64,000 nt of DNA, from positions 1 through 64,000 of the forward strand of contig NZ_UEGO01000002.1 of NCBI RefSeq assembly GCF_900465345.1, read 5' to 3'. This stretch comes from Asaia bogorensis. Lineage in GTDB: Bacteria; Pseudomonadota; Alphaproteobacteria; Acetobacterales; Acetobacteraceae. Positions 9,508 to 22,419 of this stretch are shown piece by piece; the first letter of the stretch is position 1, and each line of letters begins with the position of its first letter. The position numbers and the translations under genes were made by a program. Under the pieces are notes generated by a model that saw only the letters and a list, made by a program, of their open reading frames with translations, ran no database searches and had not been told where the DNA came from.

Positions 9508-11841
9508 TCAATAGGTTACGTTGATCTTCGCACCGACGAAACGGGGCAGGCCAGGGATGACGCCATAGAACGTTGCCTGCGTACCGCCTGACAGCCAGTA
9601 GCGCCGGTCGGCCAGATTCTGCCCATAAACAGTGAGCGACCAGTGTTGCTTGGGCGCCGCAAAGGTCAGGAAGGAGTTGAGCAGGAAATAGGCCGGTGCA
9701 CGATAGATGCCGCTATCACCGATATGCTGTGGCTGTGTCTGCGCGCCACGATAGTTGTAGTCGACGTCGAAACTCATGCGATAATCGGCGAATACGTTCC
9801 AGCTATACACGGCAGCGCCGGACAGGGTGAGGTTGGCGAGCCCCATATTGTAGCCATTGTAGTTGGTATAGACGGGTGACCAGACACCGGTAGAAGCAAA
9901 TTGTGCCGTGGTGGCGCTACGGTTCAGGCTCTGGAACTGGGTGTACACACCATTCTGGTACCCAAAATTCTGGGTGAGCACGAGCCCGTGGAAGGGATGC
10001 GCCTCCATATCGAATTCGGCACCGTAGATATAGGAGCGCGGGGCGTTTACATAGCCGCCCAGCACGCCATAGGGGGGCACCAGAATACTGCCAAGGATCT
10101 GCTGGTCGCGGTAATCGTAATAGAACCCGGCCGCATTGAAGCGCAGACGGCGGTTGAACAGCATGGATTTGAAGCCGCCCTCATAGGTGAGCACGGATTC
10201 AGGCTTGAAGGGGCGAAGCTGGTTGGCGTTCTGGGTAATATTGGCCGAGAAGCCGCCGGGCTTGAACCCTTTGGAGAAGATGGCATAGCCCATGATATTG
10301 GGCGTAACCTGATACTGCGCCCCGACACGGCCGCCGAACTGGTTGGTGAGCGCGCCCGAATTGCCGAAATTGGTTTGCGAGGTGGCGAGTCCGGTATTCA
10401 GATTGACGTTGGTGCTCGTCAGATTGAGCATCTGGCGGTCGTCGGAATCGTGGTTGATTGCGCCGATCAGCGTGAGCTTGGGCAGGATGCGGTAGCTGAG
10501 CTGCACGTACTGGTTGAAGTTCTGCTGGTTCTGACGATAGGACGTCTCGTTCAGCGGCGTGGTGCCGGGACGATCAGAGCTGTCGTACCAGAAGCTCTGT
10601 GCCATGCGCGAGCGGCTGTAATACAGGCCGGTTTCCCAATGGAAGCGTGCTTTCGGGTCACGCGATTCCAGCTTTACTTCCTGCGAAAACACGTTGGTCT
10701 GGTTGTTGCGGAACATGTTGCCGTAGGATTTGACCGAGTTGGTCTGGTTCGTCAGCTCATGCTCGTCAACCATCTCATAGGCGCTTTGTGACCACAGACG
10801 TGCCCAGTTGAATTCCTTGGTGTAGCGTACATTCGCGCCCCAGAAGAGATTATCCTCACGCGGCTTGGTATTGTTGGGGTTGATGCCAATGATCTTGGCA
10901 AAACGCGGATCGAGACCCCATGCCGTCTGGTAGATATCCCCCGTGATGGGGACGCCGTAGGAATTGTAGAGATTGTGCCCCGAGGAGGATTCCGACTGGT
11001 CAGTTGTCCAGTGGCCCCCGATATCAAGGCGCGAGGTCTCGTCAATCTTCCAGCGCAGCTTGCCGCGCAGTGCGCCGATATTGCTGTTGCCGTAACCTGC
11101 GCCCTGCGCATTGTGCTGAAAGCCGCCACCCGTGAGGGACTGCCCGGCAATGCGATAGGACACGCTTTTTGACAGTGGCCCCGAAACGAAGCCCTCGACG
11201 CGATTGCGCCCGTAACTGGCGATATCCTCTGTCAGGCCCGCATGGAATTGCTGCGTCGGGTCGCCCGTGTGGAAATTGATCTCGCCGCCGGTGGTGGGCT
11301 GACCATGCGTGAAGCCTGAGGCACCAGGGGCGACGGACACGTCATCCATATCGAACAGGATACCCGTGGTCATGATGCTGACCGGATAGGCGATGCCATC
11401 GACATAGGGCATGACCGATGGGGTGTTGTTCTGGGTAAAATCCATCAGCCCCACGCCACGCAGGGCGAAATTGAGGGCGGCGCTGCCAAAGCTCGGCTGG
11501 ATAGTCAGGTTGGGTGCCACGCGCACGATATCTGTCAGCTGCCGAACGTTCCGGTTCTGCAATTCCTGACGAGACAGAACGGTTTCGGAATGAGCATCAT
11601 GCTGGCCTGCACTGGTCACGCCGCGCCGCGCCGAGACATGCACGGTTTCGCTGCTGCCATTGAGCGGCGCATGAGGACGGGCCTTGGCGTGACGCTCCGG
11701 TTTGGCGTGCGCGGATGAGGAAGCCGCCTGAGCCCCTGTTGCGACGACAGAGAGCAACGGCGAGGCGACAATGGTTGAGATGAGCAAAACTGTCCGACAG
11801 GATATCACACGCGGGGGGCGACGGGTCTTCAGAAGGGACAT
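9508..11841 (-). CDS. TonB-dependent outer membrane receptor
   Basis: Outer membrane transporter of 777 residues. ATG at 11841 (MSLLKTRRPP) is preferred because CGGAG sits 7 nt upstream; earlier ATGs in frame lack a ribosome site. After a signal peptide (residues about 15-40) comes the plug domain, with a TonB-box-like ETVHVSARRG, the plug hallmark LTDIVRVAPNLTIQPSFG and the receptor-specific PTTGGEINFHTGDP in place of the usual NxxGG string. The barrel ends in KINVTY with a terminal aromatic residue. Upstream of the symporter and dehydrogenase genes and facing a GntR-type regulator gene, so an organic-acid-related ligand is plausible, but this is inference. Confidence 0.9.
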   Translation of the reverse strand: MSLLKTRRPPRVISCRTVLLISTIVASPLLSVVATGAQAASSSAHAKPERHAKARPHAPLNGSSETVHVSARRGVTSAGQHDAHSETVLSRQELQNRNVRQLTDIVRVAPNLTIQPSFGSAALNFALRGVGLMDFTQNNTPSVMPYVDGIAYPVSIMTTGILFDMDDVSVAPGASGFTHGQPTTGGEINFHTGDPTQQFHAGLTEDIASYGRNRVEGFVSGPLSKSVSYRIAGQSLTGGGFQHNAQGAGYGNSNIGALRGKLRWKIDETSRLDIGGHWTTDQSESSSGHNLYNSYGVPITGDIYQTAWGLDPRFAKIIGINPNNTKPREDNLFWGANVRYTKEFNWARLWSQSAYEMVDEHELTNQTNSVKSYGNMFRNNQTNVFSQEVKLESRDPKARFHWETGLYYSRSRMAQSFWYDSSDRPGTTPLNETSYRQNQQNFNQYVQLSYRILPKLTLIGAINHDSDDRQMLNLTSTNVNLNTGLATSQTNFGNSGALTNQFGGRVGAQYQVTPNIMGYAIFSKGFKPGGFSANITQNANQLRPFKPESVLTYEGGFKSMLFNRRLRFNAAGFYYDYRDQQILGSILVPPYGVLGGYVNAPRSYIYGAEFDMEAHPFHGLVLTQNFGYQNGVYTQFQSLNRSATTAQFASTGVWSPVYTNYNGYNMGLANLTLSGAAVYSWNVFADYRMSFDVDYNYRGAQTQPQHIGDSGIYRAPAYFLLNSFLTFAAPKQHWSLTVYGQNLADRRYWLSGGTQATFYGVIPGLPRFVGAKINVTY

Positions 11842-11878
11842 GGACAGCTCCGGCAACATCAATTCGATCAACAAATTC

Positions 11879-12753: not shown

Positions 12754-14868
12754 TCAGAGTCGCCCGTCGATTGTAAAGCCGAAGGCGCGGGGCTGGCCGA
12801 TCTGGGCCTGAAGCCCAGCCCAGTTGGTACGCCCACTGAACAGGATGTTCTCATTGGTCAGGTTCTTGCTATAGAACCGGATCGTATAATGGCGCGTGCG
12901 ATAGCCTATATGGGCATTGAGAACATTGTAGTCTCCCGCTATCAGCCCCGTGCCGCTCTCCACCTGCGAGGTATAGCTGCCGACGCGGTTGAAATTCGCT
13001 CCCATGAACAGGCCGTTTCTGAAGCTTTTCTCGACACCGATATTGAGTGTTGCCGAGGGGGCGTTGCTGAATTTCTTACCCTCGACTGAACGATAGGCTG
13101 CAGGGGCATCAAGAATTTTGGTGTCCAGCAGACCAAGCCCACCGAAAAGCTCGAGCGTTTTTGTAACGTGGTAGATTGCCTCGAGCTCAAGGCCCAGACT
13201 GCGCCCATGCGGGATATTGATGAAGGTGTAGTTCAGCAGATCCTGATAATCGTGATAATCATTGTAGAACAGATTGGTGTTGAAGCTCAGCTTGCGGTCC
13301 AGCAGTTCTGTATGGCCGCCAAGCTCATAGGTCGTTACCGTTTCCTTGCCGTACTGGTAATAGGTGCCGTTATCCCAGTCGATGGCACCACCTCCCGGAT
13401 TGTAGCCGCGCCGTACGGTGAAACTGGTACTGGTGACCGGGGTAAATCTGTAGCTCAACCCACCCTTTGGCAGAAACATGGTCGTTCCGGCATTGAGCGC
13501 GACCTTACCCCATGAGAGTGCAACATTGCGCGCCTGTTCCTCTCGTTCGACGCGACCGCCCGCAATCAGGCTCAGCCCGCCGATAAGGTGAAATGTTCCG
13601 TCGATATAGGCTGCATAGGTGCGTTCGGCATCAGGGCCATTCACGCCCATATCCGATCGGATAGTCTGGTCGCGGTTGAAATAATAGAAGCCGGCAACAC
13701 CATTGAGGCGGCTGTAAGCCGGAGCAAGAACGAGCCTGTCCTCAACTGTATTATTCTGTTCGCTCAGGGCCAGATGGCCAAGACTGTTGGCGCTGCCGAT
13801 GGCATTCCCCTGATAAAACAGCGCATCATACCAGACGTGACCATAGGTCAGTTCATTGGTCAGAGAGGGGCTTATCCGATAGCTGGTACGCAGGCTCGCC
13901 TGATTGATACTTGAATCGGAGATACGTGTGTTCATGTCCGGGTTATCGAAGCGATAGCGAAACAGGTTGGGCCCCGTAGCAGTGTAGAGATATTCGCCAT
14001 GCTGCTCGCGATGCCAGCCCATGAGCGTGACCTTGAGCGCAGGCAGGATTTTCGGGGTCCAGAGCAGCTTGCCGCGTATCGAGGTCTGGCTCACCTCATG
14101 CGGGTTGAAAGGCCAGTCACTGCCTGGGTATCGAATATAGCTGTCACCGCGGGTTCCGTCTCCCGTGAGGCGAAAGGCAAGTTCATCCTTGATGATCGGA
14201 CCAGAGAGCACGCCAGCAAAAACACCCTTGCTGCCTGCGCTCTCATAGCCACCTCTCACTCCGACCTGCCAATACTGCGTTGGTGCTTTGGAATTGAGTG
14301 TGATAGCGCCGCCTATGGCGTTCCGTCCCTGCGTCGTGGCCTGCGGGCCGCGCAATATGCTGATCTGATCCATGTCCCAGGTACCCGCATCCACATAGCG
14401 TTGACCCGCATAGGTTTCGGGCAGACCATCAATGATGGTGGCTGTTCTGGGCCGGCTGCCTGACATCAGGCTGAAGATACCGCCCGCCGCGCCAGAGCCG
14501 GTCACCCCGCGTATGGTCGGGATATCGGCGGCATTACCAATCATGTTGGGCACGCGATTCACCACGTCGTAAAGCGATCGGTATTCGCTTGCGTCGAGAT
14601 GACGCAATACCGTTACGGCGCTGTTCGTGTTCTGCAGGTGGTCGAGCTTGTCTCCGACAACCAAGATCGTTTCGGTCGGGTTTCCACCCTCATTATTGCG
14701 CGGCGCTTCGTTTGCCTTGCCCTGTTTTGAGGTGGAAGCTGTTTTCCTGTTCTCTTCAGCCTGCGCCGTATCGGGAAAACAGAGTAATCCACTCATCAGG
14801 GCGAGCAGCAGGGTTCCAGTCAGCGGAAGATTCCGACCTTGTGAGAGAACAGCGGACGGGGAGGGCAT
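12754..14868 (-). CDS. TonB-dependent receptor under a Fur box (siderophore type)
   Basis: Outer membrane transporter of 704 residues from ATG 14868 (MPSPSAVLSQ), chosen because AAAGG lies close upstream and a signal peptide follows directly; further upstream codons run through the Fur operator and give a nonsense Ile/Met-rich tail. Plug landmarks: ETILVVGDKLDHLQ (TonB-box-like), YDVVNRVPNMIGNAADIPTIRGV, TATIIDGLPE, DMDQISILRGPQATTQGRNAIGGAI. The barrel ends GFTIDGRL. The near-consensus Fur operator about 23 nt upstream argues strongly for ferric-siderophore or heme-type cargo. It is divergent from hemC. Specific ligand unknown. Confidence 0.92.
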   Translation of the reverse strand: MPSPSAVLSQGRNLPLTGTLLLALMSGLLCFPDTAQAEENRKTASTSKQGKANEAPRNNEGGNPTETILVVGDKLDHLQNTNSAVTVLRHLDASEYRSLYDVVNRVPNMIGNAADIPTIRGVTGSGAAGGIFSLMSGSRPRTATIIDGLPETYAGQRYVDAGTWDMDQISILRGPQATTQGRNAIGGAITLNSKAPTQYWQVGVRGGYESAGSKGVFAGVLSGPIIKDELAFRLTGDGTRGDSYIRYPGSDWPFNPHEVSQTSIRGKLLWTPKILPALKVTLMGWHREQHGEYLYTATGPNLFRYRFDNPDMNTRISDSSINQASLRTSYRISPSLTNELTYGHVWYDALFYQGNAIGSANSLGHLALSEQNNTVEDRLVLAPAYSRLNGVAGFYYFNRDQTIRSDMGVNGPDAERTYAAYIDGTFHLIGGLSLIAGGRVEREEQARNVALSWGKVALNAGTTMFLPKGGLSYRFTPVTSTSFTVRRGYNPGGGAIDWDNGTYYQYGKETVTTYELGGHTELLDRKLSFNTNLFYNDYHDYQDLLNYTFINIPHGRSLGLELEAIYHVTKTLELFGGLGLLDTKILDAPAAYRSVEGKKFSNAPSATLNIGVEKSFRNGLFMGANFNRVGSYTSQVESGTGLIAGDYNVLNAHIGYRTRHYTIRFYSKNLTNENILFSGRTNWAGLQAQIGQPRAFGFTIDGRL

Positions 14869-14890
14869 ATGAAAGGGCCTTTCAATGAAG

Positions 14891-14931
14891 ATCTTTATAA
14901 TGATAATGAGAATCATTATCATTATAAAGAT
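14891..14931. promoter_or_regulatory. Fur box inside a 41-bp near-perfect palindrome
   Basis: GATAATGAGAATCATTATC at 14902-14920 matches the classic 19-bp Fur consensus at 18 of 19 positions. The symmetry extends further: 19-nt arms at 14891-14909 and 14913-14931 are exact reverse complements around a 3-nt centre (GAA). Overlapping Fur half-sites in such a run would allow two or more dimers to bind. It lies between the receptor start (14868) and hemC, close enough to cover the receptor promoter and 5' leader. Confidence 0.9.
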
Positions 14932-15053
14932 TGAGTCCCCTCCGAATTCCATTGTTTTGCCGCTCTGTCGTGACTTGTTGCGAAGAAGACACGAGGCGAG
15001 AGCGGCCACAAAAGAGGGAGATAGCCAGTATCCCGTGCGGGGCGATCGTGTGT

Positions 15054-16217: not shown

Positions 16218-16248
16218 GTGTCCTGTCTGGTGAGGCAGGGCACTTTTT
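16218..16248 (+). terminator. intrinsic terminator after hemC
   Basis: GTGTCCTGTC (16218-16227) pairs with GGCAGGGCAC (16234-16243), two positions being G-U pairs, and is followed directly by TTTTT. This separates hemC transcription from the catalase-peroxidase gene. Confidence 0.75.
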
Positions 16249-16427
16249 GTCGTGCGCAGACACGGTGGAAAAATCTCCTCGCCATGATGAACACAGAATC
16301 GGGGTTTTTCCTGTCAGAGATATAGAGACAAACGGTTGGATCAATAAGAATGAAGTCCATAGGACAGAAACAACAGTAATGACCCGGAACAGAAGCGGGT
16401 CATTCGTGATTGTTCTGGAGTCTGGAA

Positions 16428-18680
16428 ATGAGATTGCTGAAATTCGGTATGGCGGCCTTGATCGCAACCACAACCCTGACCGCCATGCCTCACGCAGCGC
16501 GGGCGGATGGGATCGAGAACCCGAATGAATTCTACTGGCCGACACGTCTGAATTTGTCGCCTTTGCGTGTGCATGACAGCGAGTCAAACCCCTATGGGCC
16601 GGATTTCGTCTATACGCGTGATTTCAGCAAGCTCGATCTGGCAGCCGTCAAGGCGGATATCCGCAAGACCCTGACCCAGTCTCAGCCCTGGTGGCCTGCC
16701 GATTACGGCACCTATGCTCCGTTCTTCGTTCGTATGGCCTGGCACGCAGCGGGCACCTATCGCGCCATGGACGGCCGAGGGGGTGAAGAAGGCGGCGAGC
16801 AGCGCTTTGAACAGCTGAATAGCTGGCCCGATAATGCGAGCCTCGACAAGGCGCGTCGCCTGCTGTGGCCAGTAAAGAAGAAATATGGCCGTGATCTCTC
16901 ATGGGGCGATCTGATGGTGCTGACGGGCAATGTCGCGCTTGAGTCCATGGGCTTCAAGACCCTTGGCTTCGCCGGCGGCCGTGCCGATGACTGGCAGAGC
17001 GAGCTGGTCTATTGGGGCCCCGGCACACAGTTCATGAGCTCGAACGTCGATTCACAGGTCAAGAAATCCAGCGTCGAGCCCGGAGGCCACCTGCCCAAGC
17101 CTCTGGCCTCGACCACCAAGGGCCTGATCTATGTAAATCCGGAAGGCCCGAATGGTGTGCCGGACCCGGCAGCTGCGGCACAGATGATCCGTCTCGCCTT
17201 TGGGCGCATGGCAATGAATGACGAGGAAACCGTTGCCCTGATTGCAGGCGGTCATACTTTCGGCAAGGCGCATGGTGCGGCCTCGGCCACCAAATGCGTG
17301 GGCGTTGCCCCTGCCGCGGCACCTGTCGAGCAGCAGGGTCTGGGCTGGGCCAATCACTGCGTACAAGGCAAGCTGAAGGCGACCGATGCCATCACCAGCG
17401 GGCTCGAGGGCGCATGGTCGGCTGATCCGATCCATTTCACCTCGCAATATCTCGACAATCTGCTGGGTCATGAATGGGTCAAGACCAAGAGCCCGGCCGG
17501 GGCCACGCAATGGGTTCCCAAGGACGCCGAGAATATCGTTCCGGATGCGAGCGATCCGAACAAGCTGCATCCGCTCATGATGTTCACGACCGATATCGCG
17601 CTGCGTACCGATCCGTCCTATCGTGCCATCATCACGCGCTGGGCCGCTCATCCCGAACAGTTTGCCGATGCATTTGCCCATGCGTGGTTCAAGTTGACCC
17701 ATCGCGATATGGGGCCGAAATCGCGCTATTTCGGGCCAGAAGTCCCGGCAGCCGATTTCCTGTGGCAGGACCCGCTTCCTGCGGCTCAGGGCGCGATGGT
17801 CAATGCGGCGGATATTCGCGAGCTGAAGAAGGCAATCGCGGCATCAGGCCTGACAGAGCGCGAGATGATCAAGACCGCCTGGGCCTCTGCCGCATCGTTC
17901 CGTGACTCCGATCATCGCGGCGGGGCCAATGGGGCCCGTATCCGTCTGGCGCCCGAGAATGACTGGGCCGTCAATGATCCGGCAGAACTGAAATCCGTTC
18001 TGCCGAAGCTCGAGGCGGTGCAGCAGCATTTCAATGGCGGCGCGCATCATGGGCGCAAGGTGTCGCTGGCCGATGTGATCGTGCTGGCGGGTAATGTGGG
18101 TGTCGAGCAGGCGGCGCATAAAGCCGGTGTCGCGCTGGATCTGCCTTTTGCCCCCGGCCGTGTGGATGCCGGTCCCGAGCAGACGGATAAGCAGAGCTTT
18201 GCCCTGCTGGACCTCAGCGCCGATGCCTTCCGCAACTATTATCGCGCCGAGCCGGATGAGAAATCACCCACACAGATGCTTGTCGATCGTGCCAGCAATC
18301 TCTCGTTGAGCGTACCGGAAATGACTGTACTTCTGGGCGGCCTGCGTGTTCTGGACATCAATACCGGCCATTCCGCACAGGGTGTTCTGACCACGCGTCC
18401 CGGGACACTGAGCAACGACTTCTTTGTCAATCTGCTCGATATGTCCACGCGCTGGGAGAAGTCGACGCAGCCGGGCGTGTATGATGGGCTGGATCGTGAG
18501 ACGAACAAGCCGCGCTGGACGGCCTCCTCGGTCGATCTGATCTTTGGTGCGAATGCCGAATTGCGCGCCGTTGTGGAGGTCTATGCCTCTGACGATGCCA
18601 AGGCGAAATTCGTGAAGGATTTCGCCAGCGCCTGGACCAAGGTCATGACGCTCGATCGCTTCGACCTGCACCGCCAGTAA
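16428..18680 (+). CDS. katG: catalase-peroxidase with signal peptide (periplasmic KatG)
   Basis: Bifunctional heme catalase-peroxidase that removes H2O2. ATG at 16428 follows a good CTGGAG site and begins a clear Sec signal peptide ([19 protein letters not shown], cleavage near ARA-DG), so the 750-residue enzyme is predicted to be exported, unlike the usual cytosolic KatG. Active-site parts are intact: distal Arg-Trp-His in [11 protein letters not shown] (about W105, H106), Tyr235 in LIYVNPEGP and Met261 in FGRMAMND for the Met-Tyr-Trp adduct, and proximal His276 in [10 protein letters not shown]. The duplicated C-terminal domain is complete. Genes for a blue copper protein and cytochrome b561 follow on the same strand. 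Confidence 0.94.
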
Positions 18681-18688
18681 TGACCGCA

Positions 18689-18721
18689 CATGGCCCCGTC
18701 TGGCATCCAGCCGGGGCCATG
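18689..18721 (+). terminator. hairpin between katG and the pseudoazurin gene
   Basis: CATGGCCCC (18689-18697) and GGGGCCATG (18713-18721) form a perfect 9-bp stem 8 nt after the katG stop. No T-run follows, so it may be a partial terminator or an mRNA-stabilising element that lowers expression of the genes behind it rather than a full stop. Confidence 0.45.
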
Positions 18722-18818
18722 AGCAGGGGCCGCAAGACATGAGCTGCAAGACAGGGGCCGTTCGCGGGATCCCAGCCCGATTGCCCCCTGCGCCTCTCAC
18801 TTCGGGGAGACCGTTCCG

Positions 18819-19319
18819 ATGACCCGTCTTTTTTCACGCCTGATTGCCCCGCCGCGCGTTCTTCAGGCCTTTTTTCCCTCATTCTTCATGGTCCTGACCG
18901 GTGCGACCCTGATCTGTGCCGCGTCGCTCAGCGCGGCTCATGCGGCGACGGTGGATGTCAGGATGCTAAGCCATGCGCCCGATGGTGGCCGTGGTTTTGA
19001 TCCTGCCATCGTCCACATCCATACGGGCGATACGGTGCATTTCATCGCTGCCGACCCCGGTCATAACGTGCAGTCGATTCCCGGTATGCTGCCTGAGGGT
19101 GCGGCCCCCTTCACCGGCCCCATGGGTCATGATCTGAACGTGACGTTCAGCAAGCCGGGCCTGTATGGTTATAAATGCCTGCCCCATTACTGGATGGGTA
19201 TGGTGGGTATGGTCGTGGTCGACAAACCGGAGAATGAAGCGGCGGCCAAGGCTGTGTCGCAGCCCGGTGCAGCGGCAATACGGTTCAGAAAGCTTTTCGA
19301 CACGCTCGATCGAGGTTGA
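18819..19319 (+). CDS. pseudoazurin-type blue copper protein
   Basis: Small periplasmic type-1 copper electron carrier, 166 residues. A signal peptide ends near SAAHA (about residue 42). The copper ligands of the cupredoxin fold are visible: His82 in DPGHNVQSIP and Cys120-x2-His123-x4-Met128 in YKCLPHYWMGMVGM. GHNV and GLYGYKC are characteristic of the pseudoazurin/amicyanin group. A C-terminal extension of about 30 residues follows the domain. It starts 138 nt after katG and ends 4 nt before a cytochrome b561 gene, so it probably passes electrons between that membrane protein and a periplasmic acceptor. Confidence 0.88.
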   Translation: MTRLFSRLIAPPRVLQAFFPSFFMVLTGATLICAASLSAAHAATVDVRMLSHAPDGGRGFDPAIVHIHTGDTVHFIAADPGHNVQSIPGMLPEGAAPFTGPMGHDLNVTFSKPGLYGYKCLPHYWMGMVGMVVVDKPENEAAAKAVSQPGAAAIRFRKLFDTLDRG

Positions 19320-19323
19320 CCCG

Positions 19324-19920
19324 ATGGCGGTCAGGCAGGGTGGCATGACGTATCATGCGTCAATGCGCGAAAGGCCACCGCACTATACCTTCGTGGCCAT
19401 TCTGCTGCACTGGTGCCTCGCCCTGCTCGTGACCGGGCAGATCCTGCTCGGGTTTGCGATGGATCGTGCGGGGTTGCCTGACACTGCGGCGTTTTCGGTT
19501 TTCCAGATTCATCGTGCTCTGGGTGTGGTCATCCTGCTGCTGGTCGCGCTGCGCGTGATCTGGCGCCTCAGGCACAAGCCGCCACCCCATCCCCTCGGGA
19601 CCAGTATCTGGCAGGCGCGGCTTGCCGATGCGATGCATGGGATGCTCTATATTTTGCAGCTTCTTGCCCCCGTTTCGGGTTGGGCCCTGGCTTCCTGCGC
19701 TACGCTGGAACTGCCGCTCTCGATTTTCGGGTGGTTCGACTGGCCACTCCTGCCTCTCGCTCACACTGACAAGAACGAAGTGGTATTCCGTAACCTGCAT
19801 CACGCCGTTGTCTGGGGTTTTGCGGCGATGATCCTGTTGCATGGTCTGGCGGCTCTGTATCACCTGATCCGGCGTGACGGGGTGGTGCGGCGTATTTTGT
19901 CTCCTTGGTCAGATTTATAG
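19324..19920 (+). CDS. cytochrome b561 family membrane protein
   Basis: Di-heme b-type membrane cytochrome, 198 residues from ATG 19324; internal ATGs at 19345 and 19363 are possible starts. Four hydrophobic segments (about residues 20-40, 55-75, 95-120, 155-180) carry the expected heme-ligand histidines: HWCLALLVTGQ, QIHRALGVVI, HHAVVWG and LLHGLAALYH. Such proteins oxidise quinol and reduce a periplasmic partner. The gene is 4 nt behind the pseudoazurin gene, so quinol to cytochrome b561 to pseudoazurin is the natural reading, with the exported KatG as possible end point. Confidence 0.88.
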   Translation: MAVRQGGMTYHASMRERPPHYTFVAILLHWCLALLVTGQILLGFAMDRAGLPDTAAFSVFQIHRALGVVILLLVALRVIWRLRHKPPPHPLGTSIWQARLADAMHGMLYILQLLAPVSGWALASCATLELPLSIFGWFDWPLLPLAHTDKNEVVFRNLHHAVVWGFAAMILLHGLAALYHLIRRDGVVRRILSPWSDL

Positions 19921-20094: not shown

Positions 20095-22419
20095 ATGAAA
20101 AAATCGCTTCTGTTTGCCGTATCACTGATGTGCCTCGACAGCGTCCGTGCGCAGGCTGAGCCTAAACCTGTCAAACCTTCGCCCCGTCCCGTAGGGACAG
20201 CGAAACCTGTAGTGGCAACCAAAGAAGAGCAGGTGAAAGTATCGGGGCATCATCGTGAGGGCGGGGGTGGCATGATGGTGAAGCACCTTACCCCCAGGAC
20301 AATCAGCACGCTCACGGCTGATTTCATCGAAAAACAATCGCCTATGTCCACGCCAACGGGTCTGATTGCCAATCTGCCGGGGGTGGTCGGATCGAGTCAG
20401 GGGCCACTGACGGCCTCCTTCGAATCCTTCCACATACGCGGTCTGGACCGGACGGAAATCGGGGTGACCTATGAGGGCATACCGGCCGCCAATCCGTTTA
20501 CCTACAGTGTTTACACCCCGTCGATGGTCGATACCGAAAACATGGGATCGATTTCCGTCATGCAGGGTTCGGCAGACGTCAACGCCCCCGTCTACAACGC
20601 GGTCGGGGCGCAACTCTCGATGACATTACGCAAGCCTGCCACCCATCAGAACCTGTTCGCACAGGCATCTGGCGGGACACATAGCCTGAACAAGGAATTC
20701 GTTCGTTACGACACCGGTGAGATCGGTCATAGCGGGGTTTATGGCTTTGCCTCCGGGTCCTATTCGAGCGGCAATCTCTGGCGCGGGCCCGGATCGGTCA
20801 GCCGCTGGCATGTGGATGCCGCCCTGACCAAAAGCTGGAATACGCACAGCGATTCCGAGGCGATATTCGGCTATACCAAGTCCGATCAGACCTCGTGGCT
20901 TTATCCGACACTCGGCCAGTGGCGGACTTATGGTGTGGGGTACAATACCACGAAGGATCCGAGCTCGCCGGGCTTTTATGAAATCAACAAGCGCAATACC
21001 GGCACGGTTTTCGGCGCGCTCAAGAACCATTTCGGCTTCGATCATGGGCTGTCGCTCGATGCCACAGCCTATGGGGTCGAATTCAACGGCCCCTATTTCT
21101 GGGGCGCCAATGTGCCGGTTTCGGGGGGCTATATCGGCACACAGCGCTACGATCATCTCGATGGCTACGCGCCCTCATCGGCAACGCTCCGTACGGCTGT
21201 CCATCAGCCTTGGTTTACCTTGTCATCGGGGCTGAATCTGGTGGGAAGCTGGAAGCGCTCCTTCAATACGCTGAGCGTTTCCTACTGGTATTCGTACGCG
21301 AATGAATCCTCGAACCAGCGCTATTATCCGATCAATGCGCAAGGGCAGTGGACGCGCTCAACCGGCTATCTCACCGCGTTTGGCGGTATGCCGATCAATG
21401 AGGACCCCGAGAACGCCCTGCAACAGGCCAACACACTGGCGATCAATGACAAGGTGAGCCTCCTGAACGATCGTCTTGTGCTTGAGGCAGGGCTCAAGAC
21501 GGCCATGTTCAACCGGCAGTACACGATGGATCTGCCCGGTGCCACGCCCTATAAATCCGTGCGCAATGCGTTCATACCGGCCCCGCAATTTCTGGCGAGC
21601 TACAGGTTCGATCAGGCTAACCAGGTCTATATCAACGGCACGACAGGCTATCGCATGCCAAGCAGCCTGAACTCACAGGTTTCGATGTACAGCCATCTGA
21701 ATGGGCAGCCCACTTCCACCCCGCTCGATCCCTATGAGCCGGAATACATGATCGGCGAGGAAATCGGTTATCGTTACAGCGGCGCGATGATGGCGAATAT
21801 CGCCTATTTTCACTACAATATGACTCATCATCAGATCACGAGCGCAACCTATCAGCCTGGATCGACCAATATCGTGGCGCAGGTGATTGATGCGGGCGGG
21901 CAGGAAGCCAATGGCGTGCAGCTCGAACTTGCGACTCATCCCTGGCACCATCTGAGCGCCTATGCGTCGGGCCAGTACATGATGACGCGTATCGGCAATA
22001 ATATCGCCTATCAGGGGGATTATCTGCCTACCAAGGGCAAGCAGGAACCCGGCGCGCCAAAATTCCTTGCCACGATGGGGCTGAGTTATGACGACGGGAC
22101 CAATTTCGGAACCTTCAACCTGCGCTATTCGGACGCGCAATATGCCACGTTGATGAACGATCAAAGCATCCCGTCCTATATGACGGCCGATATCTCGCTT
22201 GGTCGCAACCTGCCGAAATTCGGGCATGTGCTGCCCAAGCTCATGCTCAATCTCATCAATATTTCCGACCAGCATTATCTGTCCGGTGTCTATGGCTACA
22301 CTGCTGCTGCCACAGCCCATCGCGGTGTTTATGGGAGTGGTCTGACGGGTTCTCAGCCGACCTATGACATCGGTTCGGGCTTTGCAGCAGTGGTCAGTCT
22401 GTCAGGCAATTACAATTGA
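20095..22419 (+). CDS. TonB-dependent outer membrane receptor
   Basis: Outer membrane transporter of 774 residues. The start MKKSLLFAVSLMCLDSVRAQA is a textbook signal peptide, which fixes the ATG at 20095. Plug features include EEQVKVSGHHREGGG, SPMSTPTGLIANLPGVVGSSQGP, FHIRGLDRTEIGVTYEGIPA and MGSISVMQGSADVNAPVYNAVGA. The barrel ends in LSGNYN. The weak ribosome site is enclosed by a perfect inverted repeat (20062-20094). It stands alone, with an oppositely oriented hydrolase gene behind it, so nothing nearby names its cargo. Confidence 0.9.
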   Translation: MKKSLLFAVSLMCLDSVRAQAEPKPVKPSPRPVGTAKPVVATKEEQVKVSGHHREGGGGMMVKHLTPRTISTLTADFIEKQSPMSTPTGLIANLPGVVGSSQGPLTASFESFHIRGLDRTEIGVTYEGIPAANPFTYSVYTPSMVDTENMGSISVMQGSADVNAPVYNAVGAQLSMTLRKPATHQNLFAQASGGTHSLNKEFVRYDTGEIGHSGVYGFASGSYSSGNLWRGPGSVSRWHVDAALTKSWNTHSDSEAIFGYTKSDQTSWLYPTLGQWRTYGVGYNTTKDPSSPGFYEINKRNTGTVFGALKNHFGFDHGLSLDATAYGVEFNGPYFWGANVPVSGGYIGTQRYDHLDGYAPSSATLRTAVHQPWFTLSSGLNLVGSWKRSFNTLSVSYWYSYANESSNQRYYPINAQGQWTRSTGYLTAFGGMPINEDPENALQQANTLAINDKVSLLNDRLVLEAGLKTAMFNRQYTMDLPGATPYKSVRNAFIPAPQFLASYRFDQANQVYINGTTGYRMPSSLNSQVSMYSHLNGQPTSTPLDPYEPEYMIGEEIGYRYSGAMMANIAYFHYNMTHHQITSATYQPGSTNIVAQVIDAGGQEANGVQLELATHPWHHLSAYASGQYMMTRIGNNIAYQGDYLPTKGKQEPGAPKFLATMGLSYDDGTNFGTFNLRYSDAQYATLMNDQSIPSYMTADISLGRNLPKFGHVLPKLMLNLINISDQHYLSGVYGYTAAATAHRGVYGSGLTGSQPTYDIGSGFAAVVSLSGNYN

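Follow-up and report, generated by a model that had tools for sequence, protein, structure and literature searches.

What can serve as the physiological electron donor of a catalase-peroxidase (KatG)? To our knowledge, the natural donor of these enzymes has long been unclear. A locus of the acetic acid bacterium Asaia bogorensis raises this question anew: in the first 64,000 nucleotides of contig NZ_UEGO01000002.1 (assembly GCF_900465345.1; this whole stretch is hereafter the window), positions 16,428–19,920 of the + strand carry katG, then a pseudoazurin gene, then a cytochrome b561 gene. We propose that this trio forms an operon-like periplasmic peroxide defence in which electrons would pass from quinol to b561, on to pseudoazurin and finally to KatG, mainly for the upkeep of KatG, and we put the probability of this reading at roughly 0.52. 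More tentatively, and at somewhat less than even odds, KatG would function as a periplasmic peroxidase that depends on a cupredoxin and is linked to quinol, and would be the first KatG with a dedicated encoded donor, with a pseudoazurin–katG link that may have arisen more than once. If true, this would supply an answer to the opening question, and the conserved, compact three-gene set makes the donor question directly testable.

KatG, pseudoazurin and cytochrome b561 at one locus

The katG frame (16,428–18,680, + strand; ATG at 16,428, stop at 18,680; 750 aa) scored 990.1 bits against TIGR00198 (cut-off 770.25), with PF00141 as its sole Pfam match and no CCP_MauG domain, i.e., the domain of di- and tri-haem bacterial peroxidases. 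The pseudoazurin gene (18,819–19,319, + strand; 166 aa) encodes a predicted exported blue copper protein, with a signal peptide recognized by eye at its N-terminus, and scored 120.3 bits against TIGR02375 (cut-off 109.85). Its His-Cys-His-Met copper-ligand pattern was found in 22 of the 23 KatG-linked copies tested (the copy of genome G001 being left out), the exception being the split copy of G007. The b561 gene (19,324–19,920, + strand; 198 aa, with a possible alternative ATG at 19,345) scored 95.6 bits against PF01292 (cut-off 30.1) and retains the conserved haem-ligand histidines. Gaps of 138 bp and 4 bp separate katG from the pseudoazurin gene and the latter from the b561 gene, and the source genome (3.38 Mb, 43 contigs) contains a single KatG match and a single pseudoazurin match. 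The grouping noticed in a sequence-only reading of this DNA is thus real, since all three genes exceed their family cut-offs and share one strand in an operon-like layout. Their order exceeds chance, as it recurs in 23 genomes from four genera.

KatG starts with a Sec-type signal peptide of 26 aa ending in AARA (16,428–16,505, + strand), identified by eye from the sequence, and carries a pair of export-linked cysteines, Cys290 (codon 17,295–17,297, + strand) and Cys311 (codon 17,358–17,360, + strand). Both features were shared by 30/30 KatGs compared from the exported clade of the family (22 complete trio KatGs and 8 others), with the N-terminus scored as hydrophobic, and both were absent from 5/5 other KatGs of the family outside this clade. 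Elsewhere, among named KatG loci (the best 80 of 588 candidates, from which records near the source genome may be missing), the cysteine pair occurred in 24. All 24 belong to the 37 loci whose N-terminus is hydrophobic, and the remaining 43 all lack the pair; the hydrophobicity test takes in the open frame upstream of the start, so that a few false positives are possible. The two cysteines probably form a disulfide in the exported enzyme, and the pair could mark exported KatGs. Because it is confined to KatGs with a hydrophobic N-terminus, it independently backs the Sec signal that had been claimed from the sequence, and KatG is very probably exported.

In the proposed scheme, exported KatG would destroy periplasmic H2O2, mostly as a catalase. 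Cytochrome b561 would draw electrons from ubiquinol and, on the periplasmic side, reduce pseudoazurin, which would in turn dock on KatG and donate the electrons to it. These electrons would let KatG act as a peroxidase and, probably more importantly, would rescue enzyme stranded in oxidised off-pathway states, which would be of value where the periplasm is acid and lacks NADH. We infer the direction of electron flow, the docking of pseudoazurin on KatG, the upkeep role and the quinol step on b561 from what the sequences hold: signal peptides recognized by eye, the cysteine pair, the gene order and its conservation, and complete sets of catalytic residues, copper ligands and haem ligands. On this basis, a chain from quinol through b561 and pseudoazurin to KatG appears to be the most economical reading of the conserved trio.

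The proposed chain has partial counterparts among known systems. Pseudoazurin is one of the cupredoxin donors of di-haem bacterial peroxidases. Type I copper proteins donate to classical periplasmic peroxidases, and the di-haem bacterial peroxidases resemble the trio in reducing periplasmic H2O2 with a cupredoxin as possible donor (PMC10301912); they differ in that the terminal enzyme here is a KatG, which belongs to the PF00141 superfamily and lacks a CCP/MauG domain. Similarly, in the quinol peroxidases YhjA, PerC and QPO the quinol pool powers periplasmic peroxide removal (PMC10301912), but these are single three-haem c proteins, whereas three proteins would share the task here and b561 is the presumed site of the quinol step. 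The sequence-only reading knew of no described system combining KatG, pseudoazurin and b561, and none appeared among the open-licence PMC papers listed by the searches, as judged by titles and abstract openings.

Conservation within and beyond the family

We evaluated conservation across 397 genomes of the family, drawn evenly from a larger group, of which 251 contained KatG. The exported KatG clade, defined by at least 64% identity, comprised 31 genomes among the matches listed, and other broken copies may be missed. The count of 31 leaves out G157, whose katG is broken in two pieces and which shares its genus code with G078. The full trio, in the same order and on the same strand, was found in 23 of the 31 genomes: 9/9 of the window's genus, G016 of a sister genus, 11 genomes of genus code g57 and 2 of g125. 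Three of the 23 trios are flawed, with katG split in G001 (a genome counted here, but left out of the tree and residue counts below), pseudoazurin split in G007 and the pseudoazurin frame short in G006, and these may be assembly errors.

The surroundings of the trio change from genus to genus. The upstream neighbour is hemC in the window's genus and G016, while the g57 trios are flanked by gyrA and a PLP enzyme (wide stretches of G386 and G149, i.e., 2 of 11 genomes, with Pfam run on G386) and the g125 trios by HbpS-like, short-chain dehydrogenase and other genes (G188, 1 of 2). The window b561 shares 50% identity with the G016 copy and 37–40% with the g57 and g125 proteins, and its position is kept. 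Pseudoazurin exceeded its cut-off in 40 of the 397 genomes, and in 23 of these it lies beside exported katG, i.e., in 22 trio genomes and in G278 (the G007 copy falls under the cut-off). No katG or b561 gene was seen within ~5 kb to either side of the remaining 17 pseudoazurin genes, although in G144 the contig stops short in one direction. The persistence of the trio in 23/31 genomes with differing flanking genes, the constant place of a b561 that has diverged to 37–40% identity, and the association of 23/40 family pseudoazurins with exported katG all favour an electron chain to KatG.

A separate case of the same association favours it as well. In a sample of 385 genomes of the class, 24 had pseudoazurin over the cut-off, including the source genome. 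Among the other 23, 17 also encoded KatG, and only in G621, a member of another alphaproteobacterial family, do katG and pseudoazurin lie together. There, an exported katG carrying the cysteine pair (by eye), hemA and a pseudoazurin gene lie on the same strand with gaps of 86 and 45 bp (L202:2193-7514, contig C256); the hemA product scored 638.9 bits against the 5-aminolevulinate synthase profile TIGR01821, pseudoazurin scored 111.4 bits (cut-off 109.85), and a divergent OxyR-like gene remained under the OxyR cut-off (261.5 vs 329). About 0.03 such neighbours would be expected by chance in the 17 genomes, according to a post hoc hand estimate, and the G621 genome is flagged as 10% contaminated. 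The link between pseudoazurin and exported katG may thus have arisen more than once, in acetic acid bacteria and, as katG-hemA-pseudoazurin, in G621. Another contig of G621 (C285, L203:4855-9883) carries a tandem katG pair; by eye, one product has the two cysteines behind a lipoprotein-like signal, and its neighbour looks cytosolic.

Clients, donors and the weight of the evidence

NirK and CCP/MauG proteins are the textbook clients of pseudoazurin. NirK exceeded its cut-off in 0/17 genomes, which rules out pseudoazurin as a NirK donor in the genomes tested. Across six trio genomes, CCP_MauG matches numbered two each in the source genome, G005 and G016, one in G386, and none in G188 or G358, so that a pseudoazurin serving CCP only is excluded in the last two. 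Both textbook clients were therefore not found in two of six trio genomes, which favours KatG as the recipient of the electrons. On the donor side, cytochrome c1 of the bc1 complex was not found in the source genome, G005 or G016, and b561 may therefore replace bc1 there.

The identity of b561 itself bears on the direction of electron flow. All 22 trio b561s examined keep His13, 45, 137 and 151 (CybB numbering), which we take to be the haem ligands, and the only solved structure matched by b561 was 5oc0 (E 3e-05), E. coli cytochrome b561. An improbable alternative consistent with this match is that b561 is a superoxide oxidase, as E. coli CybB is according to PMC9113575 and PMC11869295: superoxide electrons would then pass inward to ubiquinone, pseudoazurin might act as a relay, and KatG would remove H2O2. 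CybB belongs to the same family and has the same aligned haem histidines; however, with the CybB equivalog profile, whose cut-off is 170 bits, b561 reached only 27.4. Among the basic residues that PMC11869295 assigns to superoxide capture in CybB (R30, R35, R38, R108 and K134), the first four had no aligned Arg or Lys in 22/22 trio b561s and the fifth was an Arg in 7/22, in an alignment that is uncertain in the loops and in which some sequences of the window's genus have an Arg two places from R30. With so few of these capture residues conserved, we downgraded the superoxide-oxidase reading.

In the proposed path to KatG, b561 would instead serve an exported partner, and its gene neighbours in the source genome are in line with such a role. 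Five PF01292 matches occur there. On contig C17 (L178:401-2031), a mini-catalase gene (PF00199, 62.9 bits; hydrophobic N-terminus) is directly followed by a b561 gene, a pair also seen in G005, G386, G358 and G188 and not in G016, and on contig C34 (L159:561-2687) a b561 gene comes after a YceI gene (Pfam) and before another frame that looks YceI-like by eye, an arrangement resembling LcoA–BcnA. Hence, b561 adjoins probably secreted protective proteins three times in this genome (KatG–pseudoazurin, mini-catalase and YceI), and the trio extends this pattern; the pairing with mini-catalase and YceI protein also favours the chain. In LcoA–BcnA, as described in PMC9113575, a b561 gene likewise stands beside the gene of a secreted antioxidant protein, a YceI lipocalin, and the authors suggest that b561 re-reduces its partner's quinone. 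The proposal that b561 feeds KatG follows the same logic with KatG as the client; the difference is that the trio partner is KatG plus pseudoazurin in place of a lipocalin, and no YceI gene was found beside b561 at this locus.

Several observations weigh against a dedicated chain. Eight of the 31 exported-KatG genomes lack pseudoazurin, b561 or both beside katG: in G278 katG and pseudoazurin stand together and b561 is missing from the locus, in G413 only a remnant of pseudoazurin is left, and neither partner was seen by katG in G247 (where the contig ends 755 bp downstream, so that b561 cannot be judged), G069, G078 (whose katG has one internal stop), G131, G187 and G229 (1.5 kb flanks only). 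These eight relatives keep exported KatG without the full partner set, and the chain is therefore not obligatory; the co-conservation expected from the sequence-only reading holds in 23 genomes of four genera and fails for one or both partners in these eight. Further, intact catalase residues imply that a donor is not strictly needed: the distal Arg-Trp-His, the Met-Tyr-Trp adduct residues, the proximal His-Trp-Asp and the mobile Arg are kept in 22/22 trio KatGs. Cytochrome c1 is present in the trio genomes G188, G386 and G358, where b561 is therefore not the sole possible donor; the two CCP/MauG proteins of the source genome are possible pseudoazurin clients; and the net charges of KatG and pseudoazurin showed no clear complementarity. 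Monofunctional catalase was found in 12/12 genomes, and KatG is therefore not the sole peroxide defence.

Outside the family, periplasmic KatGs such as KatP of E. coli O157 and KatA of Legionella resemble the window's enzyme in bearing a signal, and 24 of the 80 named loci share the cysteine pair. The named loci differ in their neighbours: no b561 or pseudoazurin gene was found within 6 kb of katG, or to the contig end, at any of the 80, in a search whose profiles came mostly from proteins of this family and in which some contigs end near katG. This, too, weighs against a dedicated chain. Of the 37 named loci that have a hydrophobic N-terminus, 30 were viewed, and 15 of these have a same-strand gene ≤400 bp downstream, and by eye none of these encodes a b561 or cupredoxin; the downstream gene of L057 has two CxxCH motifs, resembling a di-haem peroxidase (by eye). 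Four plasmid neighbourhoods of pseudoazurin were viewed among 80 listed rows (of 373 and 342 matching records); the three with annotation showed no katG, and the fourth is unannotated at that place.

The gene trees bear on the history of the trio. In a KatG tree (quick method, SH-aLRT) including 30 of the 31 genomes, the exported family clade had a support of 97; g124, with KatG only, was outermost, followed by a side with 9 trio genomes and a side with 13 trio and 5 KatG-only or partial genomes. Since this tree splits the trio genomes into two clades, a single trio origin is not established. The b561 tree also keeps the two trio groups apart (a single change in 4% of bootstrap trees); for pseudoazurin the value is 38%. 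Neither of these two trees is decisive, and both count as points against the proposed chain. One gain with several losses and two gains would both fit.

Given these points, the trio might instead be a co-regulated antioxidant set without a chain to KatG, in which KatG would be a plain catalase and b561 and pseudoazurin would do other protective redox work, e.g., on another acceptor or on radicals. We consider this unlikely, and still deserving of real weight. It would fit the intact catalase residues, the six relatives that showed katG alone, the source-genome b561s paired with a mini-catalase and a YceI protein as probably secreted protectors, and the availability of two CCP/MauG-type proteins as pseudoazurin clients. 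However, pseudoazurin stays by exported katG in G188 and G358, which have neither a CCP/MauG match nor NirK over the cut-off, and the katG–pseudoazurin pair persists in G278 with no adjoining b561, both of which count against this alternative.

Neighbouring genes and operon layout

The window b561 gene is flanked by the pseudoazurin gene and a TonB-dependent receptor gene, and such receptors flank the locus on both sides. This arrangement, together with a receptor gene next after b561 in G005, G002, G001 and G016, would suit a role of b561 and pseudoazurin in metal handling (ferric or cupric reduction) for the downstream receptor, with katG as a mere neighbour. Yet G004 of the window's genus has a different gene after b561, and wide stretches of G386, G149 and G188 keep katG without a receptor. 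With the receptor not constant beside the trio, metal uptake was downgraded and appears very improbable. Three TonB-dependent receptor genes lie inside 13 kb around the locus (9508–11,874, 12,754–15,009 and 20,095–22,419).

Returning to the trio as a peroxide defence, its layout suggests that katG, pseudoazurin and b561 form one operon-like unit and would be co-transcribed. An intrinsic-terminator-like stem with a T run (16,218–16,243, + strand) lies after hemC and separates it from katG; the terminator scan found 4 sites against 3.0 from shuffles, which is weak evidence, and the position of this stem between hemC and katG makes a terminator plausible. The same scan, with the same weakness, left the gap from katG to the pseudoazurin gene free of such sites.

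Upstream of katG, a conserved block, AGAGATATANNNACAAWCGGTT (16,316–16,337, + strand), was recognized by eye as a possible promoter or regulator site. It was present at 8 loci of the window's genus and its sister genus (G016) and in none of three printed loci of the other two genera, its CGGTT being invariant in 10/10 rows. In the source genome the block occurs once exactly and once more with 3 mismatches, while the reversed control gave 0. Closer to the start codon, a 7-pair hairpin in the katG leader (16,378–16,404, + strand) is a candidate RNA control element (z −4.06, 0/200 shuffles as stable). Over 9 distinct sequences, 92.1% of cells were paired and 4/7 pairs had changed on both sides, a value reached by 1/500 shuffles; the structure had been derived from the sequence of the window itself, a choice that favours this result. 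Finally, a G+C-rich hairpin without a T run follows katG (18,690–18,720, + strand; z −2.29, 6/200 shuffles as stable). Several relatives have hairpins of differing sequence at the same site (by eye), and this element is possibly an mRNA stabiliser or a partial attenuator.

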